This document shows positions 1,607 through 20,842 of a stretch of DNA of 32,373 nt, one piece after another. The first letter of the stretch is position 1. Each line of letters begins with the position of its first letter. The notes below the pieces were generated by a model that had not been told where the DNA came from, searched no databases, and saw only the letters and a list, made by a program, of their open reading frames with translations. Both the position numbers and the translations under genes were made by a program. Source of the DNA: Wenzhouxiangellaceae bacterium (GTDB lineage: Bacteria > Pseudomonadota > Gammaproteobacteria > Xanthomonadales > Wenzhouxiangellaceae); the NCBI GenBank assembly GCA_018334995.1, contig JAGXKW010000015.1:22529-54901 (forward strand), in the 5' to 3' direction.

Positions 1607-1678
1607 GCCTGGACTCTGGAATGGCGTTTTCGGATAGGATGCGCGAATTGCCGTCGCAGTATAGCCAAGGATCCAACA

Positions 1679-2764
1679 ATGAGCGCCGACGCGGAATCAC
1701 GCGCAAGACAGGTATTCGAGCAGTTCCAGGACCCGGTACTGGGTCCCGATCTCAAGCCGGCCCTGGGTTCGCCGGAAATCGCGGCAGACGGCGGGCGGGT
1801 CAGGATCGGGCTCGAGCTTGGCTTTCCGGCCAGGCTGCATGGCCGGCGCCTGGCGCGCGAACTCAAGCGGCAGCTGGAGGCTGCCGAAGGCATCGATTCC
1901 GCCGCGGTCACGACCGAAACCCGAATCGCGCCGCACCAGACCCAGCCCAACGTCGAGCGGCTCAAATCGGTCAAGAACATCATCGCGGTGTCCTCGGCCA
2001 AGGGCGGGGTGGGCAAGTCCACCGTGGCGAGCAATCTGGCGCTGGCGCTGGTCGCCGAGGGCGCGTCGGTCGGGATGCTGGATGCCGACATCTACGGGCC
2101 CAGCCAGCCCCGCATGCTCGGCGTCAGCGGACGTCCGGATTCGCTGGACGGCGAGGCGATAGAGCCGATGAAAAGCTACGACGTCGAGTCGATCTCGGTC
2201 GGTTACCTGATCGACGACGACGAGCCCATGATCTGGCGCGGGCCCATGGTCACGCGTGCGATGCAGCAGCTGCTGAACGATACCCGCTGGGGCGACCTGG
2301 ATTACCTGATCGTCGACATGCCGCCCGGCACCGGCGATATTCAGCTGACGCTCGCGCAGCAGGTGCCGGTCGCGGGCGCGGTGATTGTCACCACGCCCCA
2401 GGACATCGCGACGCTGGATGCGCGCAAGGGCCTTCAGATGTTCCGCAAGGTCAACGTGCCGGTACTGGGCATCGTCGAAAACATGAGTCTGCACATCTGC
2501 AGCAAGTGTGGCCACCAGGAGCATATTTTCGGTGCCGGCGGCGGCGAGCGCATCGCCCGGGAATACGGCGTGCCGTTGCTGGGTTCGCTGCCCCTGGATA
2601 CCACGATCGGCAAGCATGCCGACAGCGGCTGTCCAAGCGTGGTGGCCGAGCCCGACGGCGACATCGCCCGGGACTTCATCGAAATCGCGTTGCGCATGAC
2701 TGCCAAGCTTTCGCTTCAGGCCGCCGACTTTACCCACCGGATGCCGAAGATCGTGATTCGTTGA
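1679..2764 (+). CDS. apbC: ApbC/Mrp (NBP35-type) Fe-S cluster carrier P-loop ATPase
   Basis: The 361-residue protein has a short N-terminal MIP18/DUF59-like region (about residues 1-85) and then a MinD-like P-loop ATPase. The deviant Walker A is SSAKGGVGKST (about residues 104-114), followed by LDADIYGPSQP and VDMPPGTGD. The CxxC motif ICSKCGH (about residue 278) is the site where Mrp/ApbC proteins bind a bridging 4Fe-4S cluster. The family transfers Fe-S clusters to apoproteins in the cytoplasm. The ATG is chosen because AAGGA lies 7 bases before it; the open frame extends further upstream, but that part runs antisense through the BNR gene. The gene sits just before the FDH accessory genes, so loading of FDH or ferredoxin clusters is a reasonable inference, although ApbC also has general roles. 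Confidence 0.93.
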   Translation: MSADAESRARQVFEQFQDPVLGPDLKPALGSPEIAADGGRVRIGLELGFPARLHGRRLARELKRQLEAAEGIDSAAVTTETRIAPHQTQPNVERLKSVKNIIAVSSAKGGVGKSTVASNLALALVAEGASVGMLDADIYGPSQPRMLGVSGRPDSLDGEAIEPMKSYDVESISVGYLIDDDEPMIWRGPMVTRAMQQLLNDTRWGDLDYLIVDMPPGTGDIQLTLAQQVPVAGAVIVTTPQDIATLDARKGLQMFRKVNVPVLGIVENMSLHICSKCGHQEHIFGAGGGERIAREYGVPLLGSLPLDTTIGKHADSGCPSVVAEPDGDIARDFIEIALRMTAKLSLQAADFTHRMPKIVIR

Positions 2765-2782: not shown

Positions 2783-2870
2783 TCTGTCCGACGGACGGCA
2801 TTCTTGCGTACCGGTGCTTGCGCAAATGCTCGTGCATAATCGATCCGGGGTTTCTGAGCAGAGGATGGAA

Positions 2871-3350
2871 ATGGTAGAGTCGATAATCGAACGCAGGCCG
2901 GTGACCGGCATCACCTTGATGGTGCAGCACGATGCTGCCGGCTGGCAACTCACGGGCCTGTTCCCGGAAGCCGGGCCGCCGCAGGGCGCCGTGCAGTGTC
3001 GGCTGGTCCGCGACGGCGGTGATGCAAAGATTTATCAATGGCAGGGTTTGCCGCTGCGTTTGCAGCCGGACCAGGGCGACGACTACATCTACAACCTCAC
3101 CAGCCCCAGCCCGATGCTGTTCGTGATCTGCAAGACCGGCGAAAAGGGTCAGCCGATTCCACTGCGCGTCACGGCCGACCAGGATGACTGCGTTGCAGCC
3201 GTAGAGGTGGACGAAGTGGTATTTCGGGCGCCAATGCCCAGACCCATCATCGACTGGATTCGGGAGTACGTGGAAGCGCACTGGGAGCCGGGCCCGCGCA
3301 AGCACAAGCGCAAGGGCGGCGACGGGCGGCAGCGAAAGCAGGGTTCATGA
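2871..3350 (+). CDS. DUF3305 protein, formate dehydrogenase accessory
   Basis: This 159-residue protein begins with ESIIERRP, the family's characteristic start, and ends in a basic tail rich in Lys and Arg. It has no signal peptide or membrane segment, so it is predicted cytoplasmic. DUF3305 genes recur with DUF3306, a ferredoxin, TorD-type chaperones and fdhABC in proteobacteria, which is the layout here; the biochemical role is unknown. Two in-frame ATGs lie six bases apart. I chose the second because AGAGG stands 6 bases before it, whereas the first directly abuts that sequence. The gap to the DUF3306 gene is only ten bases, indicating one transcript. Confidence 0.8.
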   Translation: MVESIIERRPVTGITLMVQHDAAGWQLTGLFPEAGPPQGAVQCRLVRDGGDAKIYQWQGLPLRLQPDQGDDYIYNLTSPSPMLFVICKTGEKGQPIPLRVTADQDDCVAAVEVDEVVFRAPMPRPIIDWIREYVEAHWEPGPRKHKRKGGDGRQRKQGS

Positions 3351-3360
3351 AGCGGTGACC

Positions 3361-4011
3361 ATGAAAAAACGCGACAAGCACGAGACGGCGCCGGAAAATG
3401 GCCGGGAGCCCGAACCGTTCATCCGTCGCTGGACACGGCGCAAGGCCGATGCCGGCGGAAGCGCCGGACATCGCGAACCCGGGCAGCGCGAACCCGCGGC
3501 GCCGGATCCTGCGGATGCCGACTCTGCCGAATATGAGCGAGATGCTCCGTACGCGGCCGAAGCCGCCGGGACGGGTGCGGACGACATCGGCGAGGCCCGG
3601 GGCGACGCGGACATGCCTTCCCTGGACAGCATCGATCAAGGGGGCAGCGTGGCCGACTTCTTTTCCTCGCGGGTGAGCCCGGGACTGCGCCGCGCGGCGC
3701 TTCGCCGCCTGTTCGCCCAGAGCGCGTTGCCGGTGGTCGACGATCTCGACGACTATGCCGACGACTATACGAAATTCACCCGGCTTGGCGACCTTGTAAC
3801 CAACGAAATGCGCCATCGTCTCGAAGTCGCCCGCCAGCGTCTGGCCCAGCGTGCCGAAGAGCGGTTGGCCACTGAAGAGTCCGCATCCGCTGCAGCCTCG
3901 CAACCGACCGTCGCCGGGACAACCGGCTCGAACGATGCGGAAGAATCCGTGCAGGGTCCCGGCGAAACCGACGAGCAGGAGCATTCCGAGCATGACCGAA
4001 ACACCGACTGA
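3361..4011 (+). CDS. DUF3306 protein, formate dehydrogenase accessory
   Basis: The 216-residue protein carries FIRRWTRRK near residue 20, matching the F-x-x-R-W-(S/T)-R-R-K opening of DUF3306. A second conserved block around residues 95-145 contains LRRAALRRLFAQ and LDDYADDYTKF. The regions between and after these blocks are acidic, Ala/Glu-rich and probably disordered. The protein lacks cysteine clusters and membrane segments. DUF3306 is known only by its association with formate dehydrogenase clusters. An in-frame GTG two codons upstream is an alternative start. The stop lies inside the ferredoxin gene with a 20-base overlap, so the two are translationally linked. Confidence 0.8.
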   Translation: MKKRDKHETAPENGREPEPFIRRWTRRKADAGGSAGHREPGQREPAAPDPADADSAEYERDAPYAAEAAGTGADDIGEARGDADMPSLDSIDQGGSVADFFSSRVSPGLRRAALRRLFAQSALPVVDDLDDYADDYTKFTRLGDLVTNEMRHRLEVARQRLAQRAEERLATEESASAAASQPTVAGTTGSNDAEESVQGPGETDEQEHSEHDRNTD

Positions 4012-5692
4012 CCCCGACGGCGAAATCCAGTGGCCGGCGTCGACCCGGGCCGGACGGGCCCGGGCCATTGCGCTGGACGCGCTCGAACCCATGCCGCAGC
4101 CGCAGGAATGGGTGGAGTACAAGTCTTCCGGCCGCCTTCTGATCATTGGCCCGGCCGATGATGCGTTGCCGCTGGCCAAGGTGCTGGACGCGCACTTGAG
4201 CTGCGTGCTGCTTGCAACCCGTCCGCCCGCCGAGCCGCCGGATACCGCGCCGCCCGTGCGCTACCTGGACGGCCGGCCGCGCAACCTGGCCGGATATCTC
4301 GGTGCATTTACGCTGGACGTCGAGGTGGATCGCGGGCGCGTGCTCGAAGCCGGCGCGGCTTTCGGCATCGAGTCGGGAACATTCGACCTTGTGCTCGACC
4401 TGGACGGGTCGGGCGGCCTGCGCATGGATGAGCCGCCGCCCGGCTATTATCTTGCGATCGATCCGGCCGGCCGGGAAAGGGCGCTGGAAGAATTGCCGGC
4501 GATGGTCGGCGACTTTCAGAAGTCGCGCTATTTCGCATATGACCCGGAGATCTGCGCGCATGGCGCCAGCGGCATGACCGGTTGCAGCAATTGCCTGCTG
4601 GCCTGTGCTACCGAGGCGATTGTTTCGATCGGCGACAAGGTCGAGGTCAATCCGTACCTGTGCCAGGGTTGCGGGAGCTGCGCAACGGTCTGTCCGACCG
4701 GCGCGATGCAGTACCAGGCGCCGCCGGTGGTCGAGGTCATCGACGGCGCGCGGCGCATGCTCAAGACATTCCGCGACCATGCCCGCGATGAACCGGCGCC
4801 GGAAATATTGCTCTACAGCGCCGATTCGGCGCAGCCGGAACTGACCGCGCATGCCGACGATTTGCCGGAGCATGTATTGCCGCTGGCGGTGGAGGACGTG
4901 GGTTCGGTCGGAATGGATGCTCTGTTGTCCCTGCTGGCCTTCGGCGCCGCGCGCGTATTGCTGCTGCCGGGGCCTTCGCCTGCGCCAAGCAAGGTCCAGG
5001 CCAGCCGGTCGACGATCCAGGTGCTCGACCGGATGCTCGAAGCACTCGGAGATCGAGAACACGCCCAGCGCGTCGTCTGGTTGGATGATGCGGGCGAGGC
5101 GGCCGCGCATCACCCGATTGCGCCGATGGTCAGCGAGCCGGCGACCTTCAGCGGGCTTGGAAACAAGCGCGAAGTCATCCGGCGCGCGCTGAAGGTGTTG
5201 CATGAACAGGCCGCGGCCCCGCTGGAAATCGCAGCGCTTCCCGGGCAAGCTGCGTTCGGCGCGATAGCGGTGGATCAGGAGGCCTGTACGCTGTGCATGG
5301 GATGCGTGTCGGTGTGTCCGGCATCCGCGGTGCAGGGCGGCGGCGATCGGCCGCGGCTCGAGTTTCGCGAGGATCACTGCGTGCAATGCGGGCTGTGCGA
5401 GCAGGCGTGTCCGGAAGATGCAATAACGCTTCAGCCGCGAATCAATTTCCGGGCGCATCTGGAGCCGCATTCCAGTTTGCTCAACGAGGCGCCCATGCAC
5501 CATTGTCCGGATTGCGGCAAGGCATTCGCGACCGAACAGATGATCGAACGCATGCTCGGCAGGCTGGCCGGGCACTGGATGTACCAGGACGAAAACGCCC
5601 GCAATCGGCTACTGCTTTGCGAGGATTGTCGAATCCAGAAGATGTGGGACGAAGAAGGCAGCATAGAAGTGCATCGCAACAAGCGATCCTGA
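3992..5692 (+). CDS. Four-cluster 4Fe-4S ferredoxin-type protein with C-terminal zinc ribbon, FDH-associated
   Basis: The 566-residue protein has two pairs of 4Fe-4S motifs. The first pair uses Cys 198, 201, 205 and 224, 227, 230, 234 with an extra Cys 188. The second uses 432, 435, 438, 442 and 463, 466, 469, 473. The C-terminus has CxxC pairs at 505/508 and 543/546, a likely zinc ribbon. Residues 1-180 and 250-420 resemble a duplicated non-cluster domain. There is no signal peptide, so it should work in the cytoplasm. Homologues occur in proteobacterial FDH clusters; electron transfer or Fe-S delivery during FDH maturation is plausible but unproven. The start overlaps the DUF3306 gene by 20 bases. 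Confidence 0.87.
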   Translation: MTETPTDPDGEIQWPASTRAGRARAIALDALEPMPQPQEWVEYKSSGRLLIIGPADDALPLAKVLDAHLSCVLLATRPPAEPPDTAPPVRYLDGRPRNLAGYLGAFTLDVEVDRGRVLEAGAAFGIESGTFDLVLDLDGSGGLRMDEPPPGYYLAIDPAGRERALEELPAMVGDFQKSRYFAYDPEICAHGASGMTGCSNCLLACATEAIVSIGDKVEVNPYLCQGCGSCATVCPTGAMQYQAPPVVEVIDGARRMLKTFRDHARDEPAPEILLYSADSAQPELTAHADDLPEHVLPLAVEDVGSVGMDALLSLLAFGAARVLLLPGPSPAPSKVQASRSTIQVLDRMLEALGDREHAQRVVWLDDAGEAAAHHPIAPMVSEPATFSGLGNKREVIRRALKVLHEQAAAPLEIAALPGQAAFGAIAVDQEACTLCMGCVSVCPASAVQGGGDRPRLEFREDHCVQCGLCEQACPEDAITLQPRINFRAHLEPHSSLLNEAPMHHCPDCGKAFATEQMIERMLGRLAGHWMYQDENARNRLLLCEDCRIQKMWDEEGSIEVHRNKRS

Positions 5693-5950: not shown

Positions 5951-6634
5951 ATGCCGCTCGAGTCGAACGTCAACGCGCTGTCAGATGAATCCTCTCGAGG
6001 TTCGGCTGAGCAGCAGCTTCGAACGCCCGCCAGCGAGCAGGACCCACCCGCATTCAAGGAAGCCGATCGGTTTCGCGCCGATACCTACAGAATACTCGCC
6101 CGCCTGTTTCGAGCCGCTCCGGATCAGGACCTGATCGATCTTTTTGCCGACTGCAGCCAGCCTGAACATCCGGGCTCCTGCCTGGAGTCGGCCTGGAATG
6201 GATTGGCCGAAGCCTGTCAACAGGCCGATCCGGCCAACGTGGACGATGAATTCCATGTCCTGTTTATCGGGCTCGGGCGGGGCGAAGTCCTGCCGTATGC
6301 CAGCTGGTACCTGTCGGGGTTTTTGCTCGACAGGCCGCTCGCCCGTCTGCGTGCGGATCTTGACGCACTGGGCATAGAGCGTGCTGAGAACGTCTCGGAG
6401 TCCGAAGATCATGTCGCCGCCATTTGCGAAACAATGGCGCTGCTCGTCGAAACGGAAACCGGCATCGACTACACGGGCCAGAAGCAATTTTTCGATCAGC
6501 ATTTACAGCCCTGGTTTTCCCAGTTTCTCGACGATATTCGGGCGGCGCAGGCCGCCGATTTCTATCGCCGGGTCGCAGCGCTGGGCCAGGGATTTTTCGA
6601 GTTCGAAGAGCGCTGGTTGTCTTTGCCCCAATAG
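5951..6634 (+). CDS. TorD/DmsD-family redox enzyme maturation chaperone
   Basis: The 227-residue, all-helical protein carries the family signatures: DEFHVLFIGLGRGEVLPYASWY (positions about 98-119, shortest core GEVLPYASWY) and SEDHVAAICETMALL (about 150-164). TorD-type chaperones bind the Tat signal of a molybdoenzyme and hold it in the cytoplasm until cofactor insertion is complete. As the first gene after the FNR-like site and directly upstream of fdhA, its client is very probably FdhA. The first ~35 residues are polar and probably disordered, so translation might begin later, but ATG 5951 has GGATGAG immediately upstream. The next gene starts 17 bases after its stop. Confidence 0.88.
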   Translation: MPLESNVNALSDESSRGSAEQQLRTPASEQDPPAFKEADRFRADTYRILARLFRAAPDQDLIDLFADCSQPEHPGSCLESAWNGLAEACQQADPANVDDEFHVLFIGLGRGEVLPYASWYLSGFLLDRPLARLRADLDALGIERAENVSESEDHVAAICETMALLVETETGIDYTGQKQFFDQHLQPWFSQFLDDIRAAQAADFYRRVAALGQGFFEFEERWLSLPQ

Positions 6635-6651: not shown

Positions 6652-6867
6652 ATGAAAAACCGCCGCAAGAAAGTGGTGCAAGCGCCGGATCTGGGACGCC
6701 GGCGCGTACTGGGTAGCGCGATGGGTCTCGGTACTGCAGCCGGGCTCGGTTTGTTGTCGGTGTCGGGCCATGCGTCAACCGAACGTACCGCGGTTAAAGC
6801 TGCTCGACCCCGCAACTATCACGAGACAGACCATATTCGTCGATATTACAAAAGCACGCGACTGTAG
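6652..6867 (+). CDS. Small twin-arginine-signal protein of formate dehydrogenase clusters
   Basis: The 71-residue protein has a basic N-terminus with GRRRVLGSAMG (about residues 15-25), a hydrophobic stretch ending near Ser-Gly-His-Ala, and a short C-terminal tail ETDHIRRYYKSTRL. This matches the 'formate dehydrogenase region TAT target' family, whose C-terminal motif is an acidic-His-x-Arg-x-Tyr-Tyr pattern. It should be exported by Tat, or co-exported with FdhA, and may be a small subunit or assembly factor; its role is not known. It lies between the chaperone gene and fdhA in the same operon. Confidence 0.85.
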   Translation: MKNRRKKVVQAPDLGRRRVLGSAMGLGTAAGLGLLSVSGHASTERTAVKAARPRNYHETDHIRRYYKSTRL

Positions 6868-9901: not shown

Positions 9902-10489
9902 ATGGCACGTATGAAATTTCTTTGTGACGCCGATCGCTGCATCGAGTGCAACGGCTGTGTTACGGCCTGCAAGAACGCCAACGAAGTGCCCTGGGGCGTC
10001 AATCGCCGCCGAGTGGTAACGCTGAACGACGGTTTGCCCGGCGAGAAGTCGATTTCGGTCGCCTGCATGCACTGCACCGATGCGCCTTGTGCGGCCGTTT
10101 GTCCGGTCGACTGCTTCTACACGACCGATGACGGGATCGTTCTGCACGACAAGGACCTGTGCATCGGCTGCGGCTACTGCTTTTACGCCTGCCCATTCGG
10201 CGCCCCCCAGTTTCCGAAGACCGAGGCCTTCGGGGTGCGCGGCAAGATGGACAAGTGCACGTTCTGTGCAGGCGGGCCGGGCGAAGACGGCACCGAGGAG
10301 GAGTTCGAGAAGTACGGCGCCAATCGTATCGCCGACGGCAAGCTCCCCGCCTGTGCCGAGATGTGCGCGACCAAGGCTTTGCTCGCCGGCGACGGCGACA
10401 TGGTGGCCGATATTTATCGGGAGCGCGTGATGCGGCGGGGCGGCCGCCCGCAGACCTGGGGCTGGTCGAAAGCCTACGGCGAGGGTTGA
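9902..10489 (+). CDS. fdhB: Formate dehydrogenase iron-sulfur (beta) subunit
   Basis: The 195-residue protein holds four 4Fe-4S clusters. Visible motifs are CIECNGCVTAC near residue 14, CMHCTDAPCAAVCP near 56, CIGCGYCFYACP near 87, and CTFC paired with CAEMC near 117 and 150. It passes electrons from FdhA to the cytochrome b subunit. Unlike E. coli FdnH, it has no C-terminal membrane helix, so anchoring must rely on FdhC or other partners. A strong GGAGG lies 6 bases before the ATG. It is followed by two small lipoprotein genes rather than directly by fdhC. Confidence 0.95.
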   Translation: MARMKFLCDADRCIECNGCVTACKNANEVPWGVNRRRVVTLNDGLPGEKSISVACMHCTDAPCAAVCPVDCFYTTDDGIVLHDKDLCIGCGYCFYACPFGAPQFPKTEAFGVRGKMDKCTFCAGGPGEDGTEEEFEKYGANRIADGKLPACAEMCATKALLAGDGDMVADIYRERVMRRGGRPQTWGWSKAYGEG

Positions 10490-10697: not shown

Positions 10698-10901
10698 ATG
10701 ACTTTCGGGAGACATGTTTGCTTGCGGCTGACCGGATTGTTTCTTGTGGCAACGCTCGTTGGCGCCTGTTCCATCGAGCCCATCGACGAGCCCTGGGTGA
10801 ATCCCGAGCAGCGAGAACTCGTTGAAGGCGAACTGGACCGGGATCATGACCAGGCGGAAAAACTTCGCGATCGTTTGGCCACAGGTCAAAGCGATCGATG
10901 A
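10698..10901 (+). CDS. Small lipoprotein between fdhB and fdhC (copy 2)
   Basis: The 67-residue protein has an N-terminal signal with lipobox LVGAC (Cys24) and a mature part of about 44 residues. The tail, AEKLRDRLATGQSDR, parallels the tail of the preceding lipoprotein, and both mature parts have an early Glu-Pro followed by a charged helix. The gene begins two bases after the stop of copy 1 and ends 16 bases before fdhC. No named family is recognised. The pair is small, secreted and embedded in the FDH operon, which makes an accessory role in the complex plausible. Confidence 0.68.
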   Translation: MTFGRHVCLRLTGLFLVATLVGACSIEPIDEPWVNPEQRELVEGELDRDHDQAEKLRDRLATGQSDR

Positions 10902-10917
10902 ATTGGAGATCAGGAAA

Positions 10918-11991
10918 ATGAGCAAAGGCACCCCGACGCGCAGCAAGTCAAAACGCATTCTGATTGGTTCCGCCCTGGTTCTGATCGCAGCAATGATTGT
11001 CCCTTTGACCGGATACGTATACGTTGCCGTGGCACAGCCGCAGATCGAATCTTCAGCCAATTGGCAGGAAACCAATCCGCGCTCGGAAATCTGGCGCGAA
11101 GTCCGACAGGGAAGTCAGGCTTACAGTGCGGTCAAGGGTCCCGAGGCGAATGTGCTGATCGACAATGGCGGCCAGAACTTCCGCCAGATCCGGAATGGCC
11201 CCGTTGCGACGTTTGGTCCCTGGTTGCTTGCAATCATGTTGCTCGGCGTTGCCGGAATGTTCGTGCTGAGCGGCGGCGGCCAGAAAGTCGAAAAACCGCT
11301 GTCCGGGAAGCGCGTCCCGCGCTGGTCGACGTATGTACGCGTTGTGCACTGGATCATGGCCATTGCGTTCCTGCTTCTCCTGATCACCGGGCTGAGCCTG
11401 TTGTTCGGACGTGCGGTACTGATCCCGTTGATGGGCGCGGAGGGCTTTTCGGCATGGGCCATCGTGGCCAAGTATGTCCACAACTACACTGGACCGGTTT
11501 TTGCCGTTTCTCTGCTGATGCTGGTGCTCGCGCTCGCGCGCGACAACATGCCCTCCAAAGTCGACGTCGACTGGTTCCTCAAGGGTGGATTCGCCGGCAA
11601 GCACGTGCCCACCGGCAAGCTCAATGCCGGTGAGAAACTCTGGTTCTGGTTCAATGCGGTCGGGGGACTGGTCGTGGCCATCTCCGGCATCGTTTTGATC
11701 CTGCCCAACATCTTCGAAGCCCGTTCGACGATGCAGATCGCCTTGCTCGTGCACGCCGGTCTTGCCCTGCTGTATATCGGCGGCAGCTTCGTCCACATGT
11801 ACATGGGAACCCTTGGTGCCCGGGGCGCCCTGGATGCCATAACAAAGGGTCATGTAAGTTCGGAGTGGGCCGAACAGCACCACGACTTGTGGTACGACGA
11901 CGTCAAAAAGGAAGGCAAGGAATTCGTCGGCGAGGAAGGCGAAGCGGGACGGGGGCCGGAAGTTCCGACCGGTTCGGGCTCCACTGCCTGA
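10918..11991 (+). CDS. fdhC: Formate dehydrogenase cytochrome b (gamma) subunit
   Basis: The 357-residue membrane protein belongs to the FdnI/FdhC diheme cytochrome b family that passes electrons from the Fe-S subunit to quinone. An N-terminal helix (about 13-36) is followed by a ~60-residue loop that is probably periplasmic, a second helix (about 100-117) and the four-helix core. Candidate heme ligands are His144 (VVHW), His188 (YVHN), His279 (LVHAG) and His293 (FVHMYMG). The C-terminal tail is charged and Gly-rich. The E. coli FdnI protein is shorter and lacks the N-terminal extension, which is usual for this longer subtype. AGGA lies just upstream of the ATG. Confidence 0.94.
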   Translation: MSKGTPTRSKSKRILIGSALVLIAAMIVPLTGYVYVAVAQPQIESSANWQETNPRSEIWREVRQGSQAYSAVKGPEANVLIDNGGQNFRQIRNGPVATFGPWLLAIMLLGVAGMFVLSGGGQKVEKPLSGKRVPRWSTYVRVVHWIMAIAFLLLLITGLSLLFGRAVLIPLMGAEGFSAWAIVAKYVHNYTGPVFAVSLLMLVLALARDNMPSKVDVDWFLKGGFAGKHVPTGKLNAGEKLWFWFNAVGGLVVAISGIVLILPNIFEARSTMQIALLVHAGLALLYIGGSFVHMYMGTLGARGALDAITKGHVSSEWAEQHHDLWYDDVKKEGKEFVGEEGEAGRGPEVPTGSGSTA

Positions 11992-12009: not shown

Positions 12010-12789
12010 TTACGCGTCGCAATCGGTCCATTGCTGGACACCGAGAAAACGCCGGATCGAAATGGTCCGGCGTTTTTCGTCGACGTCCAGTTGGAGCCGT
12101 CCACGTGAATCGACGCCGGCCAGCGTTCCGGCAATTTTCCGGTCCTTTTCGATCACCAGCGCAACCGGTGTGCCGGGCTGCTCGCTCCGGCTGGAAAATT
12201 CTCGCAGAATCGGTTGCATGCCTTCGTCCGCCCAAAGGTTCAACCAGGCCAGGAATTGGCGCGAAAACTGTTCCAGTAGAAGCTCAGGTGTCATTTCCGG
12301 ATTCCCGCCTTCTTCGAGCAGACATCCGCCGTCGAAGATTTCCTCCGGGCGCGTTTCGACGTTGCAGCTCAATGTCAGCGTCAGCCAACCCGTCGATCGG
12401 TCTTCCTCCAGCCACAGGCCTGCCACACGTGTGCCGCCGACCATCAGAGCGTTGGGCCAGCGATAGCGGAGTTCCGTCATGGGTTCGACCATGGAAGCGA
12501 CCGCCGCACCGAGTGAGACAAGGCCCACCAGCGCGATCTGCCCGGTATTTTTCCAATCGAATTCCGGGCGCAGGATCAAGGCGGCGTACAAGCCCCGGGC
12601 AGGGGATTCCCAGGACCGCCCCGATCGTCCATGCCCCGATGCCTGGGCATCGCTCCAGACCAGGGTGCCTTCGGGCGCGCCCGCGCGCGCCAGCTCGAAG
12701 GCTTCCTCTGCAACGTTTCGGGCGCTCTCGAGCCGGATCGGCTCGAACAACGGTGGTATTTCCGGTCTGCGACCTTGCGTGTTCGACAT
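12010..12789 (-). CDS. Biotin/lipoate protein ligase-like protein with altered active site, FDH-adjacent
   Basis: The 259-residue protein has the BirA/LplA catalytic fold signatures. SGHGRSGRSWESP (51-63) matches the Gly-x-Gly-Arg-x-Gly-Arg-x-Trp loop. RWPNALMVGGTRVAGLWLEE (110-129) matches the KWPND...RKLAG region of BirA. The lysine that contacts the acyl-adenylate in BirA (Lys183) aligns with Arg121, and the Asp of WPND is Ala, so ordinary biotin ligase activity is doubtful. There is no DNA-binding domain. A similar BPL/LplA/LipB-type family occurs near proteobacterial FDH genes. The ATG overlaps the stop of the TPR gene by one base (TGATG), so the two are coupled. It converges on fdhC. 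Confidence 0.72.
   Translation of the reverse strand: MSNTQGRRPEIPPLFEPIRLESARNVAEEAFELARAGAPEGTLVWSDAQASGHGRSGRSWESPARGLYAALILRPEFDWKNTGQIALVGLVSLGAAVASMVEPMTELRYRWPNALMVGGTRVAGLWLEEDRSTGWLTLTLSCNVETRPEEIFDGGCLLEEGGNPEMTPELLLEQFSRQFLAWLNLWADEGMQPILREFSSRSEQPGTPVALVIEKDRKIAGTLAGVDSRGRLQLDVDEKRRTISIRRFLGVQQWTDCDA
12046..12076. terminator. Bidirectional intrinsic terminator between fdhC and the ligase-like gene
   Basis: A perfect 11-bp inverted repeat (AAAACGCCGGA / TCCGGCGTTTT) with a 9-base loop is followed by T on the + strand and by a T-run on the - strand. It should end the fdh operon transcript. It lies inside the last codons of the leftward ligase-like gene, before that gene's stop at 12010-12012. 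Confidence 0.75.
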
Positions 12790-15149
12790 CAATTGACGGT
12801 GTCCGTGGGATATTGTTGTATGCCCGCGAGGAGCTTGCGCAACCGCTGGATGGGTGCCGAGAGCATATTGAGCGTGCCTTCACTGGCTGCAAGCGCGTCC
12901 TCGATCATTGTGCGCGCCTCGGAACGCTGGTCGAAGTGCAGGTAAACGCGGGCCAGCAGCGCAACGACTTCGAGATAAGCGCTGGCTGATTTTCCGGATC
13001 GCTGCATCGTCTTGTCTTTCAGATGCAACAGCAGGGGTTCGGCCATCTCGGGTTTGCCGCCATCGACGTACAGGCGTGCAAGCTCGGTCAGGGCACCCAG
13101 CGTGTGCGGGTGATCGGTACCGAGGAGTTTGCGCCAGAGTTCGATATCGGACCGATACAGGGCTTCGGCTTCGCCCCAGGCGCCACGTTCGCGCAGCACG
13201 CCGGCGAGATTCAACAGCGTGGTGGCGAATGCGGGACTTTCTTCTCCGGTCACCTGGCTCCAGGTTTCCAGTGCCCGGCGATAAAGCTGCTCGGCCTCGT
13301 CGGCTTTGCTCATCGATTCCAGCGCGACAGCGAGATTGTGCATGCAGCCGGCGGTATCTTCGTGATTCTCGCCATGGATCGCCATCAGCAGTCCAAGCGA
13401 ACGGCGATGAGACTGCTCGGCCTCGCCGAATTTCTGACGCGCATCCAGCACGCTTCCGAGATTGCCCAGGCAGGCCGCGGTGGCCGGGTGATCCGGGCCG
13501 AACGATGCTTCGGTGATTTCGAGCGTCTCCCGGTACAGCGGCTCGGCGACATCGTACTGGCCATTCATGTAGGCGATCCCGGCCAGCTGATCGCAGCATA
13601 CCGCTGTAGTTGGATGACGCGATCCCAGTCCCTCGCGCGACAGGCGCAGCGCCCTGCGCAACACCTGGTCGGCGGCACCCAGGTCGCCTGCGGCCTTGTG
13701 AGCGGCAGCCAGGTTGATCAACCACGGAATCAGACGTGGAGAATCGGCACCCGCAACGGTTTCGGTGCACGCAACGGCCAGCTCGTACTCATGCCTGGCT
13801 TCGGTTTCTCGTCCTTCGGTTTCGAGCAGGCAGGCAAGGCGATGGTGCAGTGAAGCCCGGACCGCCTCATCGCTTTCGGGTTCCTCCGCGACCCGCGCCA
13901 GGGCACGTCGGAGCATCTCGGCGGCGTCGGCAGCAGCCGTGTCGCCGTGCGCGGCAAGCAGCTGCAATGCCTGGACCAGGGCAGGGGAGTTGCCTTCGGA
14001 TTCCGCCCGTTCGGCAGCCCGCTGAAGCCATTTCAATGGTGCGTCGCTGCCTGTACCGACCGCGAAAACATGGGCAGCGCCCAGGATGGCGTCGCTGGAC
14101 TGGTCCGGAAACAGGCAGGCCAATTCGAGCGTTTGATGCATCCGATCGCTGCCGCCCAATGCACGCCAATGACGGAGCGCTTCGAAGCAACGCGAAGGCT
14201 GACGCATGGCCTCCAACAAAACGGTATCGACGAGGATCTCTTCGAGCCGGTCCAGTCGCCCGGCGGCCGCCCAGTGCCAGCAGGCCCGCTCAAGCGCTGC
14301 GATTCCGGGCTGGTTGCCGAAATATTCGGCGAGTCGAATATGCAGTGCCTGACGCCGGCCATGATCGCCGAGCCGGCGCCTCGCCACCGCATCGCGCGCC
14401 TGGCCCGAGGCCAGCGTGATGCGCCGGCCGTCGAACAGCAGCCCCGGCGGTGGTGGATCGAGCGCCGGCAGTTGCGATTGCGTCAAAGCGTCCAGCACCT
14501 CTAGCTCGAGGCCCGCACGGGCGGTCCACAGCAATTCCAGCCACGGGCCCGCGGCGTCCGATTCAAGCAGGTCGTCCGACAGGGCGGGTTCCGAACCTGC
14601 CGGGGAATCATCGTCTTGCAGGGTGAAAACGGCCGCCGATCGCTCCCGAAACTGTTCGGCAGCCGGTCCCGGCGGCGCCGAAATCAGCACCGCCACGCCC
14701 CGGGGAAGCCATCCAGGCAGCCAGTCGAGGTCTGCGGTCAGCCCATCGAGGCTCAGTTCATGTGCGTCCTGGACGATGATTGCGAGACCGCCGGCGGCCG
14801 CCGCGCGCGCCAGCCAGTTGGGCAGGGTTTCGCGCATGGCAGCCGGCTCGGCCGGGATCGGGTCGGAAAACTCGAGCTGGCGTCGCAGATCGGCCATTAG
14901 CCGCCAAAGGAACACCTCCGGATCGCGACAATCGGCTCCCAGGCCCGCAGCATGAAAAACCTGCCGTGATCCGAAGTTGCGTGCCGCGGCGAGCAGCGCG
15001 GGCGTCGGCGCGACAGCGCGCGGACAAATGACCAGGTTGAGGCCATCGACTGCCTCGAATGGCAAGGCATCCCGCCGACCGCTGTCCTCCAGGCGGTCGA
15101 TTTTCATCTGCATCAGGTCATCTTCGGGCAATGAAACCGGTGCCGCCAT
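12789..15149 (-). CDS. MalT-like STAND protein with degenerate P-loop and kinesin-light-chain-type TPR repeats
   Basis: The 786-residue protein starts at the ATG preceded by AGGT about ten bases upstream. Residues about 35-230 resemble the ATPase region of MalT/LuxR-type STAND proteins. The place of the Walker A reads CPRAVAPTPALL and lacks the G-K-(S/T) signature, while a Walker B-like LAIIVQDAHEL remains. The C-terminal half has at least seven TPR units of the kinesin-light-chain type, with repeats such as AEPLYRETLEI, AEQLYRRALETW and AEALYRSDIELW spaced by about 42 residues. No HTH domain is seen. It is the first gene of a two-gene operon with the ligase-like gene and faces the FDH operon. 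A scaffold or assembly role is inference. Confidence 0.75.
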   Translation of the reverse strand: MAAPVSLPEDDLMQMKIDRLEDSGRRDALPFEAVDGLNLVICPRAVAPTPALLAAARNFGSRQVFHAAGLGADCRDPEVFLWRLMADLRRQLEFSDPIPAEPAAMRETLPNWLARAAAAGGLAIIVQDAHELSLDGLTADLDWLPGWLPRGVAVLISAPPGPAAEQFRERSAAVFTLQDDDSPAGSEPALSDDLLESDAAGPWLELLWTARAGLELEVLDALTQSQLPALDPPPPGLLFDGRRITLASGQARDAVARRRLGDHGRRQALHIRLAEYFGNQPGIAALERACWHWAAAGRLDRLEEILVDTVLLEAMRQPSRCFEALRHWRALGGSDRMHQTLELACLFPDQSSDAILGAAHVFAVGTGSDAPLKWLQRAAERAESEGNSPALVQALQLLAAHGDTAAADAAEMLRRALARVAEEPESDEAVRASLHHRLACLLETEGRETEARHEYELAVACTETVAGADSPRLIPWLINLAAAHKAAGDLGAADQVLRRALRLSREGLGSRHPTTAVCCDQLAGIAYMNGQYDVAEPLYRETLEITEASFGPDHPATAACLGNLGSVLDARQKFGEAEQSHRRSLGLLMAIHGENHEDTAGCMHNLAVALESMSKADEAEQLYRRALETWSQVTGEESPAFATTLLNLAGVLRERGAWGEAEALYRSDIELWRKLLGTDHPHTLGALTELARLYVDGGKPEMAEPLLLHLKDKTMQRSGKSASAYLEVVALLARVYLHFDQRSEARTMIEDALAASEGTLNMLSAPIQRLRKLLAGIQQYPTDTVN

Positions 15150-15463: not shown

Positions 15464-16387
15464 TCATTTTCGAGGTTTAAGCTCTTTCTTATTGATTTTC
15501 AATTTGAATATCTCCGACCGCGAATAATGTCCGGCGACATCCAGGTCGAATTTCCCACGGATGATGCTGTCGCCGTCGAGGTCGGCGACCAGGATCTCTT
15601 CACGGTCGTAGATCGGCCCCGCGATGACGTTTCCCATGGGATCGACGATGACGCTGCCGCCGCGGATCAAAGTGCGATCGGGAAACTGTTTGCCGTCGAC
15701 CGGGTAATCGGCCGGGCAATCCTCGCGCGTCAGGTACTGGCACGCCGCGAGCACGAAACAGCGACCTTCCATCGCGATATGCCGCATCGTCGGTTGCCAC
15801 GATTCGCGATCGTCCACGGTCGGCGCGCAATACAACTCGACGTTCTGTGCATACATCGCCAGCCTGAGCTGCGGCATGTAGTTCTCCCAGCAGATCGCCG
15901 CGCCCACTCGGCCCAGCTCGGTCTCGACGACATCGAGCGTCGAACCGTCGCCAAAGCCCCAGATCAGTCGCTCCATCGCCGTCGGCATCACCTTGCGGTG
16001 CTTGCCCAGCAGTTTACCGTCGCTGCCGAAGTACAGAGCGCTGCAATACAGCGTTCCGCCGTCACGCTCGACGACGCCGACGCTAACGTGCAGTCTGCAG
16101 CTCCGGACGATTTCGCCCATCCGGGCAGTCTCCGGGCCCGGCACACGGATGCTCTGGCGGAAATAGCGTGCGAACCATTCGCGCCCCTCGTCGGAGCGCT
16201 GGCCCACCCGGGCGCCGAAATCCAGGCCTTTCGGGTATCCGCCGACGAAGGCTTCGGGAAAAACGGCGAGTTCGGCGTCCTTGCGCGCCGCATCCAGCGC
16301 GCGCTGCTCGAATCGATCCAGCGTCCTGTCCAGGTCGAACAGCCTGGAGCCGGTCTGTACCACGGCTACCTTGACGTCTTGCTTCAT
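15464..16387 (-). CDS. Nitrilase-superfamily carbon-nitrogen hydrolase (nitrilase branch)
   Basis: The 307-residue protein has the full nitrilase triad: Glu45 in FPEAFVGGYPKG, Lys132 in KHRKVMPTAMER and Cys166 in AAICWENYMP. The Cys-Trp-Glu context and the HRKxMPTxxER stretch place it with true nitrilases, which hydrolyse a nitrile to acid and ammonia, rather than with omega-amidases. The substrate cannot be read from sequence. The start ATG at 16387 gives MKQDVKVAVVQTG, the normal N-terminal strand of the family. It ends with a basic tail KINKKELKPRK. It diverges from the L,D-transpeptidase gene with only about 35 bases between the starts. No nitrile hydratase or amidase neighbours are seen. 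Confidence 0.9.
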   Translation of the reverse strand: MKQDVKVAVVQTGSRLFDLDRTLDRFEQRALDAARKDAELAVFPEAFVGGYPKGLDFGARVGQRSDEGREWFARYFRQSIRVPGPETARMGEIVRSCRLHVSVGVVERDGGTLYCSALYFGSDGKLLGKHRKVMPTAMERLIWGFGDGSTLDVVETELGRVGAAICWENYMPQLRLAMYAQNVELYCAPTVDDRESWQPTMRHIAMEGRCFVLAACQYLTREDCPADYPVDGKQFPDRTLIRGGSVIVDPMGNVIAGPIYDREEILVADLDGDSIIRGKFDLDVAGHYSRSEIFKLKINKKELKPRK

Positions 16388-16422
16388 TTCGGGCCCTTGC
16401 ACGGTCTCGGGAGGCGTTTCAA

Positions 16423-17307
16423 TTGCACATTCGCTTCGAGTTTGGCAGACTCGACAGGATGCGTCGAGCCGCACTCCCACTGATATTGACGAGCGCCGTG
16501 TTTGCCACCTCGGTTGCGGCGACGGAAAGGTGGCAGTACCGACCCGCTCCCGTGGAGGAATCATCGGCCGGTAGCGCACAGACCGCGGGTCGCCAGTGGC
16601 CGGAACGGCCGATTCACCTGCCGTCGAGCGAAAGCTCCAGATCGGCCTGGATTCACCAGGGCGAGTGGTTGTTTGACCGTCTGGCCGACAAGGGTTTGCG
16701 GATCGGCGATCCGGTGCACATCCGTATCTTCAAGCAAAGCCGCGAGCTGGAGCTTTATCTGCGAGGCCGTGACGGCTACGCGCTCTACCGCACCTACCCG
16801 ATCTGCGACATGTCCGGGTCGCTGGGACCCAAGCGATTCGAGGGCGACTACCAGGCGCCCGAGGGCTTTTACACGATTGCCCCGGAGCGGCTGCATCCGC
16901 ACTCGGACTTCCATCTCGCATTCAATCTCGGCTATCCGAACGCGTTCGATCGTTCCCTGAACCGCACCGGCAGCAACATCATGATTCATGGCGGTTGCTC
17001 TTCGAACGGCTGTTTTGCGATGAGCGACTACTACATGGAGCAGATCTATCTGCTGGCCGAGGCCGCGTTCCAGCACGGGCAGAAAGATATCGGGGTCGAG
17101 ATCTACCCGTTCCGGATGACCGAAGAGAACCTGGCAGCGCACGCTTCCTCGCGCTGGATCGATTTCTGGCGCAGTCTCAAGCCGGCCCACGATCATTTTG
17201 TCGCCTCCGGCCGGCCGGCTCGCGTCGAATCCGCAGCCGGTGCCTACCGGGTGCTCGCCGACGGCATCCCGCCCAGAGCGGAGACGGCTGGTATCAGCGC
17301 CCCGTAG
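16423..17307 (+). CDS. Periplasmic L,D-transpeptidase-family protein, YafK/DpaA-like
   Basis: This is a secreted YkuD-domain protein. A signal peptide covers the N-terminus (hydrophobic ALPLILTSAVFATSVAA). The catalytic motif IMIHGGCSSNGCFAM contains His189 and Cys197 in the 294-residue form. The short spacing and the S-S-N-G-C-F sequence are typical of the YafK/DpaA branch, whose E. coli member detaches Braun's lipoprotein from peptidoglycan rather than making 3-3 crosslinks. The start is uncertain. TTG 16423 has GGGAGG 8 bases upstream and is used here; ATG 16459 gives a tighter signal peptide but has no well-spaced ribosome site. The gene diverges from the nitrilase gene. Confidence 0.88.
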   Translation: MHIRFEFGRLDRMRRAALPLILTSAVFATSVAATERWQYRPAPVEESSAGSAQTAGRQWPERPIHLPSSESSRSAWIHQGEWLFDRLADKGLRIGDPVHIRIFKQSRELELYLRGRDGYALYRTYPICDMSGSLGPKRFEGDYQAPEGFYTIAPERLHPHSDFHLAFNLGYPNAFDRSLNRTGSNIMIHGGCSSNGCFAMSDYYMEQIYLLAEAAFQHGQKDIGVEIYPFRMTEENLAAHASSRWIDFWRSLKPAHDHFVASGRPARVESAAGAYRVLADGIPPRAETAGISAP

Positions 17308-18380: not shown

Positions 18381-18881
18381 GTGAAAACAGTGCGCCGATG
18401 GGTTCAGCTGTCGATTGCCTTGTGGCTGTTCTGGCTGGTGCTCGCCATGCCGCTTGATCTCTCCGACTTGTTCTGGGGGCTGGCGGTGGCAGGCCTTGCG
18501 GGTCTTGGCGCAAGCTTTTTTCTCTGGCGTCGGCAGGCGCCCGGGCTCGGCGCCCGCAACCTGGCCGGTCTGATTTTTCATGTGTTCGACCTGGTCCGGC
18601 TGATCGTGCCGGCTGCGCTGCAGGTCGCGCGGGTCGTACTCGATCCGTCGCTGCCGGTCCAGCCGCGAATCATCGTCTACAAGACTCTGCTTCGGGGCGA
18701 ACTGGAGCGGGTGACCCTGGCCAATACCATTACATTGACGCCCGGCACGCATTGCGTTGATCTTGACGGTGATCGGATCACGGTGCACTGCCTGGCGCCT
18801 TCGTTTGCCGATGCGCTCGTCGACGGACGGGTCGAAAGAAGAATCTTGCGGTCGCTCGGAATTTCGCAGGCCGATGACTGA
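18381..18881 (+). CDS. mrpE: Mrp/Mnh-type cation:proton antiporter subunit E
   Basis: The 166-residue protein has two N-terminal membrane helices (about 8-25 and 28-47) followed by an amphipathic segment and the conserved cytoplasmic domain with ANTITLTPGTHCVDLDGD, the MrpE/MnhE hallmark. It begins with GTG preceded by a strong GGAGGG. It opens an operon of ten overlapping genes for a multisubunit antiporter that exchanges Na+ (or another monovalent cation) for protons, and its stop overlaps mrpF by eight bases. Confidence 0.92.
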   Translation: MKTVRRWVQLSIALWLFWLVLAMPLDLSDLFWGLAVAGLAGLGASFFLWRRQAPGLGARNLAGLIFHVFDLVRLIVPAALQVARVVLDPSLPVQPRIIVYKTLLRGELERVTLANTITLTPGTHCVDLDGDRITVHCLAPSFADALVDGRVERRILRSLGISQADD

Positions 18882-19167
18882 TTGGTCCCCGGCATCGTTG
18901 TTCTGGGCGGTCGTGATCTTCCTGCTGATCAACGCCTTTGCCTGCCTGTGGCGCGGGCTCGCCGGTCCCACCCTGCCCGACCGGATTCTTGCCGTCAACG
19001 TGATCGGCACCAAGACCATGGTGGTCCTGGTATTGCTGGGCCTGGCGCGCGAACAGGGGATCTGGCTGGACGTGGCGCTGGTATACGGATTGTTGAGCTT
19101 CACGGTGACGCTGGTGGCGAGTCGGCTGCTGGAAACCGGCCTGCTCAAAGGCGCCTGGAGGGATTGA
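18874..19167 (+). CDS. mrpF: Mrp/Mnh-type antiporter subunit F
   Basis: The 97-residue protein has three predicted helices. GPTLPDRILAVNVIGTK (about 31-47) is the MrpF family signature, whose D-R-(I/V)-x-A-x-x-x-x-x-x-K pattern lies at the start of the second helix. It overlaps mrpE by eight bases, and its stop shares one base with the mrpG start (TGATG). In Mrp complexes, F is a small membrane subunit related to NuoK-flanking elements of complex I-like machines. Confidence 0.92.
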   Translation: MTDWSPASLFWAVVIFLLINAFACLWRGLAGPTLPDRILAVNVIGTKTMVVLVLLGLAREQGIWLDVALVYGLLSFTVTLVASRLLETGLLKGAWRD

Positions 19168-19493
19168 TGCTGGCTGCCGTCCACGCGCTGATCGTGTCGT
19201 TCCTGGTCATCGCCGGGGCCGCATTCTTCTTCATCGGAACGCTGGGTCTGCTGCGGTTCCCCGATTTTTATACCCGGGTGCACGCGGTGACCAAGTGCGA
19301 TGCACTGGGTGCCGGGCTGGTGCTGCTGGGCCTGGCGATCTGGAGCGGGCCCGATGGAGAAGGCGTTCGAATCATGGCCCTGATCGCGCTGCTGCTGCTG
19401 TCCAGTCCGACCGCAGGCCACGCGCTGGCGCGGGCGGCATTCAGGACCGGCTTGCAACCCTGGACCCGGGAGGACGGCGATGAGTCCGACTGA
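19167..19493 (+). CDS. mrpG: Mrp/Mnh-type antiporter subunit G
   Basis: The 108-residue protein has three helices and the MrpG signature GTLGLLRFPDFYTRVHAVTK (residues about 25-44), with the conserved R-x-P-D-x-(Y/F)-x-R-x-H-A. GGAGGG lies just before its start, inside the end of mrpF. Its tail overlaps the next gene by 14 bases. Confidence 0.92.
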   Translation: MLAAVHALIVSFLVIAGAAFFFIGTLGLLRFPDFYTRVHAVTKCDALGAGLVLLGLAIWSGPDGEGVRIMALIALLLLSSPTAGHALARAAFRTGLQPWTREDGDESD

Positions 19494-19728
19494 TCTGCTC
19501 GACCTGGTGCTGCTGGCCTTGCTGCTGACCGGCGCGATCGGCATCGCAATGCTGAAGGACCTGGCGGCATGCGCCATCGTGTTTTCCGCGTACAGCTTCG
19601 TCATGTGCCTGGTCTGGGCCCACCGCGGGGCGCCCGACGTGGCGATGACCGAGGCCGCGGTGGGTGCCGGGATCACCACGGTACTGTTCCTGACCGTCGT
19701 CTCGCGCGTCGGGAGACGAGAGAAATGA
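19480..19728 (+). CDS. MbhD/DUF4040-type small antiporter subunit (stand-alone piece of MrpA)
   Basis: The 82-residue, three-helix protein matches the MbhD/DUF4040 domain, with LKDLAACAIVFSAYSF and GAPDVAMTEAAVGAGI (about 51-66). In classical Mrp antiporters this domain is the first of two extra segments at the C-terminus of MrpA. In archaeal membrane hydrogenases and haloarchaeal-type Mrp clusters it is a separate gene, as here. It overlaps mrpG by 14 bases and the next gene by four bases. Confidence 0.88.
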   Translation: MSPTDLLDLVLLALLLTGAIGIAMLKDLAACAIVFSAYSFVMCLVWAHRGAPDVAMTEAAVGAGITTVLFLTVVSRVGRREK

Positions 19729-20438
19729 ACGCACGGCGGCGTACGGCAAGAATCCTCGCATTCGCCCTTCTGGCCGCCCTTGCCGGCCCGCTGATCCATG
19801 GCGTGCTGCAACTGCCGGCGCCCGGAAGCGCCGATGCGCCGGCGCATGCGAACGTGACGGCGAACTATGTCGAGCGAGGGGCCGAATCGGGCGGCGCCGA
19901 GAACCTGGTTACCGGCGTATTGCTGAACTTTCGAGCCCTGGACACCTTCGGCGAAGTGATCGTGATCTTTACCGCCTGGCTGGCCGCAGCGGCGGTCGCA
20001 GGGGCTGTTTCCGAAACCGGGCGCCGCGCGATCCCGGTCAGCCCGGTGGTCGACTACGTCATACGGGCACTCGGCCCGTTCATCGCGGCGTTCGCGCTTT
20101 TCGTGATCGTCAATGGCCATGTGCTGCCGGGCGGCGGCTTCCAGGGCGGCGTGGTCCTGGGCGCGATGTTGATCCTGCTTTCGCTGGTACTGGGCCCGGC
20201 CCCGGTCGCAGGGGCATTTTCCGCTCGACACTGGGCCTGGCTTCGGGCCACCGGCGTACTGGTCTTTGCCGCGACCGCCGTGATCGGCCTGGCCCTGACC
20301 GGTCACCTGTTCGGCCTGCCAGCCGAGCCGGTGTTGCGCAAATCGCTGATGATCGTGCTCGAACTGGGCATCGGCATCGGCGGCGGTGCGGTGCTGGCCG
20401 GCCTGTTCTTTGCCGTTTCCGGGGTGCAGCGGTCATGA
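19725..20438 (+). CDS. mrpB: MbhE-MrpB fusion antiporter subunit
   Basis: The 237-residue protein joins two modules. Residues about 1-100 resemble MbhE, the final segment of classical MrpA: a helix, then ERGAESGGAENLVTGVLLNF and ALDTFGEVIVIF. Residues about 105-237 are MrpB, marked by NGHVLPGGGFQGGVVLGAMLI. The fusion therefore contains the terminal part of MrpA joined to MrpB. It overlaps its neighbours on both sides by four bases (ATGA), consistent with strict co-translation. Confidence 0.88.
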   Translation: MNARRRTARILAFALLAALAGPLIHGVLQLPAPGSADAPAHANVTANYVERGAESGGAENLVTGVLLNFRALDTFGEVIVIFTAWLAAAAVAGAVSETGRRAIPVSPVVDYVIRALGPFIAAFALFVIVNGHVLPGGGFQGGVVLGAMLILLSLVLGPAPVAGAFSARHWAWLRATGVLVFAATAVIGLALTGHLFGLPAEPVLRKSLMIVLELGIGIGGGAVLAGLFFAVSGVQRS

Positions 20439-20842
20439 ACATTCTGGCCACGGCACTTGGTCACGTTGATTACCTTGTGGCAGTTGCGCTGTTCCTGATC
20501 GGTGCCTGGATTCTCGTGACCAGCGGCAACCTGGTCAAGAAAGTCATCGGCCTGAACGTGATGGAAACCTCGGTGTTCGCCTTCATCGTCACGACCGGGA
20601 TGATCGATGGCGGCGCACCGCCGCTTGTCGTCGAGGGCATGGAAGGTCCCTACGCCAGCCCGTTGCCGCATGCGCTCGTGCTTACCGGGATCGTAGTGGC
20701 GGTCAGCATCACGTCGCTGGCGCTGGTGCTGATTCTGCGGGTCAAGTCGCAATTCGGCAGCATCGAGCTCGACGAAATCGTCCCGACCGACGAGGCTCGC
20801 GGCGACGCGGATTCCGACGCCGTCGGCGGCGACGATGATTGA
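20435..20842 (+). CDS. mrpC: Mrp/Mnh-type antiporter subunit C (NuoK-like)
   Basis: The 135-residue protein has three helices and resembles NuoK of complex I. The stretch LVKKVIGLNVMETSVFAFIV (29-48) carries the conserved Gly-Leu and the membrane Glu, and PLPHALVLTGIVVAVS is the third-helix signature. The tail after residue 110 is acidic and extends past the usual family end. It overlaps the first mrpD-type gene by eight bases. Confidence 0.92.
   Translation: MNILATALGHVDYLVAVALFLIGAWILVTSGNLVKKVIGLNVMETSVFAFIVTTGMIDGGAPPLVVEGMEGPYASPLPHALVLTGIVVAVSITSLALVLILRVKSQFGSIELDEIVPTDEARGDADSDAVGGDDD

Follow-up and report, generated by a model that had tools for sequence, protein, structure and literature searches.

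A biotin-ligase-like protein that accompanies a Tat-exported formate dehydrogenase, a candidate accessory of enzyme maturation

Introduction

The DNA examined here (the window) is a stretch of 32,373 nucleotides from a Wenzhouxiangellaceae bacterium (assembly GCA_018334995.1, contig JAGXKW010000015.1, positions 22,529 to 54,901). It encodes a membrane-bound formate dehydrogenase (FDH) whose alpha subunit carries a signal for twin-arginine translocation (Tat) and, facing the FDH operon, a pair of genes for a tetratricopeptide repeat (TPR) protein and for a protein with the fold of the biotin protein ligase BirA and an altered active site, here called pBPL. Why should what looks like a retired biotin ligase stand next to a formate dehydrogenase? 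The initial annotation, made from the letters of the window, proposed that the pair could form an assembly or quality-control module for FDH, and held the link to rest on position only. The co-occurrence across genome samples described below now supports that link, and the view that pBPL is a dedicated accessory of the adjacent Tat-exported, membrane-bound FDH is well supported. Taken as a whole, the best explanation, which we hold with slightly better than even confidence, is that pBPL is an FDH-dedicated, non-biotinylating adaptor derived from BirA that acts in FDH maturation.

Results

Co-occurrence of pBPL with formate dehydrogenase

We used DUF3306 as a marker for this type of FDH in all genome counts. 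At the level of the order, 101 genomes were sampled; just two of them encode a full-length PF16917 protein of the pBPL kind, and the same two alone have DUF3306. Among 43 Wenzhouxiangellaceae genomes, the TPR N-terminus and pBPL occurred in the same 8, always beside fdhG; 7 of these 8, and no other of the 43, had DUF3306, and in the eighth the contig ends inside the fdhG that faces pBPL. In a phylum sample (349 genomes), PF16917 matches in genomes G116 and G408 turned out to be canonical BirA and were not counted, leaving 26 genomes with pBPL; DUF3306 was on the same contig in 26/26, at a distance of 2.6-8.8 kb. Within the order of genome G212 (121 genomes; probably Rhodobacterales, since the protein of known structure 3BFM is a close relative, matching the G212 protein with 356 bits), pBPL was present in 60 genomes and DUF3306 in exactly the same 60, with 58 pBPL-DUF3306 pairs within 2.6-6.8 kb. 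Thus, in the samples examined there was no exception among pBPL carriers, all of which have this FDH, and the pair, far from being widespread in genomes devoid of FDH genes, was found only with this enzyme.

Gene order in relatives

We then read 25 loci of the alphaproteobacterial type. All 25 have fdhA and torD in the same 20 kb as pBPL. The position of pBPL inside the FDH locus varies between several arrangements, one type of which has it directly after mrp; in some loci the two are translationally coupled. DUF6505 (PF20115) accompanies pBPL in 23 of the 25, usually directly downstream, and DUF6352 (PF19879) in 15, both families being identified by Pfam (L078-L102); in most loci the pBPL-DUF6505 junction is ATGA, ATG/TGA or nearly contiguous. 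In Wenzhouxiangellaceae the coupled neighbour of pBPL is the TPR gene, in place of DUF6505. A search for DUF6505 in Wenzhouxiangellaceae found none, and since the control genomes gave none either, its absence is only likely.

Some loci had additional features. In genome G270 (L082, 10312-12077), moeA-like and mobB-like molybdenum cofactor genes, named from their translations, adjoin pBPL-DUF6505; the genus of G270 belongs to the class of the window, the locus looks alphaproteobacterial, and a transfer is possible. A second fdhABG set, with an FdhA 69% identical to that of the window, is present on the same contig at L017 (G044:C32) and in G451:C84, and at L122 it is the second FdhG that the TPR-pBPL pair faces.

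Fold, family and origin of pBPL

The gene for pBPL and the sites discussed below are as follows.

12010..12789, minus strand: pBPL, BirA-fold pseudo-ligase of 259 residues, PF16917 family (profile match and predicted fold)
12616..12636, minus strand: GHGRSGR, remnant of the GRGRxGR biotin/adenylate loop
12448..12465, minus strand: YRWPNA (K172 replaced by R, D176 by A)
12427..12429, minus strand: Arg at the position of the catalytic K183, in TRVAG

PF16917 (BPL_LplA_LipB_2) matched pBPL over profile positions 1-182 of 183 with 74.7 bits (gathering score, 27), and TIGR00121 matched it with 90.3 bits. An AlphaFold2 model (mean predicted local distance difference test score, 89.4) matched 3BFM and structures of BirA with Z scores of 23-27. 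Profiles and model thus agree with the initial annotation that the motifs of the BirA/LplA fold are kept. The top structural match was 3BFM (Z 27.0, 222 aligned residues, root-mean-square deviation 2.0, 24% identity), with which true biotin ligases tie as best matches. No match to the C-terminal domain PF14563 (DUF4444) was found in the window pBPL, and PF02237 gave only a weak one (18.8 bits, below cut-off); DUF4444 is also unmatched in some members of the alphaproteobacterial type, and so does not define the clade.

In a phylogenetic tree, the pBPLs of Wenzhouxiangellaceae and of the alphaproteobacterial type form one clade (support 99/93), next to which sits the BirA of G116 and G408 (L045, L046), two genomes that have DUF3306. 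An origin from gammaproteobacterial BirA was rejected (approximately unbiased test, p 0.006), and a position beside the G116/G408 pair was not (0.28); the exact branching order of the pBPL groups is uncertain because of the long branches leading to both. The tree supports a descent of pBPL from an alphaproteobacterial-type BirA, with the protein probably being kept for binding or scaffolding after losing its biotin-ligase function. The canonical BirA of G116/G408 is the nearest functional relative of the family in the tree. A search of plasmids with the window pBPL returned mostly BirA, plus matches in Azospirillum. We also considered that pBPL could be the ordinary BirA of its host, and rejected this, as an intact canonical BirA (L019) is encoded elsewhere in the same genome and motif residues are lost from pBPL.

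Active-site changes and the case for a residual enzyme

Residues were numbered after E. coli BirA, by motif. K172, D176 and K183 are invariant across 39 BirA sequences. Where BirA has GRGRxGR, KWPND and a catalytic Lys, the window pBPL has GHGRSGR, RWPNA and Arg. The initial annotation had noted the Arg for Lys and the Ala for the Asp of WPND, and both are real in the window; the losses of D176 and K183 are, however, specific to it, as the other 7 of the 8 Wenzhouxiangellaceae pBPLs keep both residues. K172 is replaced by R and the STN motif is lost in 8/8, and R116 and R121 are each lost in 7/8. Q112, R118, G120, N175 and N208 are retained in 8/8. In all 25 pBPLs of the alphaproteobacterial type the biotin/adenylate loop is entirely absent and the remaining motifs are scrambled. 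The catalytic parts lost thus differ by member, a pattern that, as judged from the alignments, fits a family freed of ligase chemistry in which the fold and the association with FDH were retained. The suggestion that these are non-catalytic versions of the enzyme accordingly has good support in the alphaproteobacterial members, which have no loop, but less in those of Wenzhouxiangellaceae, with R118, N175 and mostly K183 and D176 in place.

It is in Wenzhouxiangellaceae that pBPL could still be an enzyme, one that activates an acyl or biotin-like ligand by adenylation and passes it on to an accessory protein of FDH, the loop changes altering specificity and not abolishing activity. The conservation of R118 and Q112 in all eight members, and of K183 and WPND in seven, would suit such an activity. 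In addition, the loop of the window, GHGR-x-x-R-x-WESP, is like that of the Pyrococcus horikoshii biotin ligase, whose D104A and K111A mutants, according to the titles of their structures, were crystallised with ligands bound. Yet the window lacks both the D and the K, K172 and STN are gone from every member, and in the alphaproteobacterial part of this FDH-linked clade the loop is missing altogether. Moreover, scans of the DUF3305, DUF3306, 4Fe-4S, TorD and TPR proteins revealed no biotinyl or lipoyl acceptor domain (the scans did not extend to FdhA, FdhB and Mrp). We regard a surviving ligase-type enzyme as quite unlikely.

The TPR partner and the case for a sensor

The partner gene, read in the same direction, has the following parts.

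12789..15149, minus strand: STAND-like TPR protein of 786 residues
14370..15062, minus strand: degenerate P-loop NTPase-like region and winged-helix-like part, approximately residues 30-260 (predicted fold only)
15000..15029, minus strand: site of the lost Walker A motif, ICPRAVAPTP
12870..13937, minus strand: kinesin-light-chain/NPHP3-type TPR array, approximately residues 405-760

The predicted fold is Rossmann-like in its N-terminal part, with a small winged-helix-like part and then a long superhelix of TPRs after it. Foldseek returned a full-length match to 6MFV, a TPR protein of the STAND class (signal transduction ATPases with numerous domains), over 740 columns but with a template modelling score of 0.32. 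The NB-ARC and NACHT profiles of Pfam did not match the protein, and the NTPase-like region alone yielded no fold match, TPR-domain matches dominating the list. The predicted fold and the match to 6MFV therefore only suggest a STAND architecture. In place of the Walker A motif GxxxxGK(S/T), the window has ICPRAVAPTP. In an alignment of 7 full-length sequences, including that of the window, over their whole length, the relatives have GPGDSGKA, GAAGSGKA, GAAGSGRA or GPAGSGRA at this site; the motif is gone in the window and in G442, and GK(S/T) never occurs. On this alignment, the P-loop is degenerate throughout the family. The initial annotation had likened the protein to MalT-type STAND proteins without the G-K-(S/T); the lost motif and the STAND-like predicted fold were borne out, but the repeats are kinesin-light-chain/NPHP3-like and not MalT-like, TPR_MalT scoring below cut-off. 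A MalT-type regulator was rejected on these repeats and on the lack of a helix-turn-helix domain, an anti-phage defence STAND protein because PADLOC gave generic TPR matches only, and an FxSxx-COOH system because NF040586 scored 136 bits on the TPR region, far under its cut-off of 300.

A scan of 84,980 genomes with the TPR N-terminus found six loci, only in Wenzhouxiangella or gammaproteobacterial records, and in five of them pBPL adjoins the TPR gene. The sixth (L121) has TPR pieces only, and its source is apparently the genome G449, in which pBPL lies on a different contig. Two copies of the TPR N-terminus are present on one contig of G449 (G449:C92; L131, L133; L121), one of them with an in-frame TAA; the second copy is a tandem paralogue, possibly a pseudogene. 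Distances between pBPLs and between their TPR partners were strongly correlated (r 0.97, Mantel 1/5040), as expected for co-inherited genes, a correlation that alone does not show an interaction. Only Wenzhouxiangellaceae have the TPR partner, so that wide conservation applies to the ligase-like protein and not to the pair.

A STAND-like partner, together with a residual pocket conserved in Wenzhouxiangellaceae, could also point to a ligand sensor: the remodelled pocket would bind a metabolite or cofactor intermediate (e.g., a pterin or an adenylate) and signal via the STAND-TPR protein to regulate the production or export of FDH. The moeA-like and mobB-like genes of G270 would be in line with this. 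However, profile scans found no DNA-binding domain in pBPL or the TPR protein, most of the family lacks the pocket loop, and the dead P-loop argues against a nucleotide-driven switch. The probability of a sensor seems to us low.

The FDH locus and the case for a structural subunit

Both open reading frames of the pair, and the one-base junction noted in the initial annotation, were confirmed: one base serves both the stop codon (TGA) of the TPR gene and the start codon (ATG) of pBPL. The pair converges with the FDH operon, the stop codons of fdhG and pBPL being 18 bp apart. The operon is made up of the following genes.

1631..2764, plus strand: Mrp/ApbC-like P-loop protein at the head of the FDH locus, presumably of the Fe-S carrier type
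2814..3350, plus strand: DUF3305 (domain scan)
3355..4011, plus strand: DUF3306, the marker for this FDH type (domain scan)
3851..5692, plus strand: 4Fe-4S protein (domain scan), the true start lying within the open reading frame at about 4001
5951..6634, plus strand: TorD-type chaperone, PF02613 (domain scan)
6652..6867, plus strand: small Tat-signal protein resembling the 'fdh tat' gene of operons already described (PMC4464133)
6904..9885, plus strand: FDH alpha subunit (FdhA), with a Tat signal
9902..10489, plus strand: FDH beta subunit (FdhB), 4Fe-4S
10822..11991, plus strand: FDH gamma subunit (FdhG, TIGR01583), convergent with pBPL

A scan for promoters and terminators was uninformative. 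Upstream of the TPR-pBPL pair lies a nitrilase-superfamily gene (15464-16579, minus strand; Nit6803-like, below cut-off), and at 18381-22316 (plus strand) a run of genes that, judged from their translations only, resemble subunits of an Mrp-type Na+/H+ antiporter.

The strict co-occurrence of pBPL with these structural genes would suit a subunit and a chaperone equally, so that pBPL might be a stable peripheral subunit or anchor on the cytoplasmic side of the mature FDH complex, with no part in assembly. Yet FdhA, with its Tat signal, acts outside the cytoplasm, and no export signal is seen in the pBPL and TPR translations, as read by eye and not predicted by a program. We consider this as improbable as the sensor.

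Selection on the pair

The ratio of nonsynonymous to synonymous substitution rates (dN/dS) was 0.19-0.25 for the pBPL of Wenzhouxiangellaceae, 0.19-0.22 for the TPR gene and 0.10-0.14 for pBPL of the alphaproteobacterial type, indicating purifying selection on both genes. That pBPL is a functionless, decaying BirA duplicate hitchhiking with the FDH locus in horizontal transfer, as the variation in motif erosion between lineages and the patchy distribution of the whole locus might suggest, is very improbable in view of these values, the intact open reading frames and the full retention of pBPL in one order, whose 60 FDH-positive genomes all have it even though gene orders are rearranged.

Discussion

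We favour a role for pBPL as an adaptor in FDH maturation. The protein would most likely act in the cytoplasm, during maturation of FdhA and FdhB, beside Mrp, the 4Fe-4S protein, TorD and DUF3305/DUF3306, its BirA-fold surface holding an apo-subunit or another accessory protein. Its putative coupled partner would be a nucleotide-dead STAND-TPR scaffold in Wenzhouxiangellaceae and, going by gene order, DUF6505, usually followed by DUF6352, in loci of the alphaproteobacterial type.

Several observations weigh against this view. In the phylum sample 27 of the 53 genomes with DUF3306 have no pBPL, so that this FDH type can be built without it. The Fisher values for co-occurrence of pBPL and DUF3306 (p 8e-25 in the phylum sample, 5e-36 in the order of G212) treat related genomes as independent and hence overstate the association. 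Genomic association is also what suggests a role in FDH assembly or quality control, and gene company what places pBPL in cytoplasmic maturation. Lastly, the persistence in Wenzhouxiangellaceae of the pocket residues listed above, five in every member and D176 and K183 in 7/8, leaves room for some remaining ligand binding or chemistry, and these pBPLs may have a residual enzymatic or ligand-sensing function.

A bolder form of the adaptor model, unlikely as it stands, is that a retired biotin ligase and a retired STAND ATPase form a new complex for FDH assembly or checkpoint control, in which the remodelled biotin pocket would recognise a cofactor intermediate or else a stretch of apo-FDH that bears a lysine, and that DUF6505 and DUF6352 replace the partner in alphaproteobacteria.

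We found no paper on PF16917, DUF4444, DUF6505 or DUF6352 in connection with FDH, most subscription journals lying outside the search, so that an earlier mention is possible; nothing relevant was found on 3BFM or on biotin ligase as a pseudoenzyme. Our observations provide a testable biological context for PF16917/DUF4444, for the 2007 structure 3BFM ('unknown function'), and for DUF6505 and DUF6352. The FDHs that Alphaproteobacteria export by Tat are of interest for the reduction of CO2 and for bioprocesses based on formate, and our observations suggest that a group of their maturation factors went unnoticed because one of these factors resembles a biotin ligase.

Among known proteins, pBPL is closest to 3BFM (TM1040_0394 of Silicibacter sp. 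TM1040; PF16917 plus PF14563/DUF4444), annotated as a 'biotin protein ligase-like protein of unknown function'. The two share the fold, the end-to-end PF16917 match and the same FDH gene company, and the window pBPL falls in the clade of close relatives of 3BFM; unlike 3BFM, it keeps a BirA-like loop and WPN, has no match to DUF4444 and is partnered by the STAND-TPR protein, not DUF6505. It resembles BirA of group I, which has no helix-turn-helix domain, in fold, length, most scaffold residues, GHGRxGR and WPN, but is without K172, D176, K183 and STN and is linked to FDH, with an intact BirA encoded separately in the genome. As a gene neighbour dedicated to one molybdoenzyme it recalls the TorD/NarJ-type maturation proteins of fdh operons, although its fold is unrelated to that of TorD. 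For fdh operons with fdhGHI, torD, DUF3305, DUF3306, fer4 and fdh-tat have already been listed, and the passages located in that paper mention no biotin-ligase-like or TPR gene in them (PMC4464133). The TPR protein, for its part, resembles STAND-TPR (6MFV) and FxSxx-COOH TPR proteins in its predicted series of an NTPase-like region, a winged-helix-like part and a TPR superhelix, and differs from them in a Walker A motif that is degenerate in all relatives and in a genomic context that is neither that of defence nor that of FxSxx.

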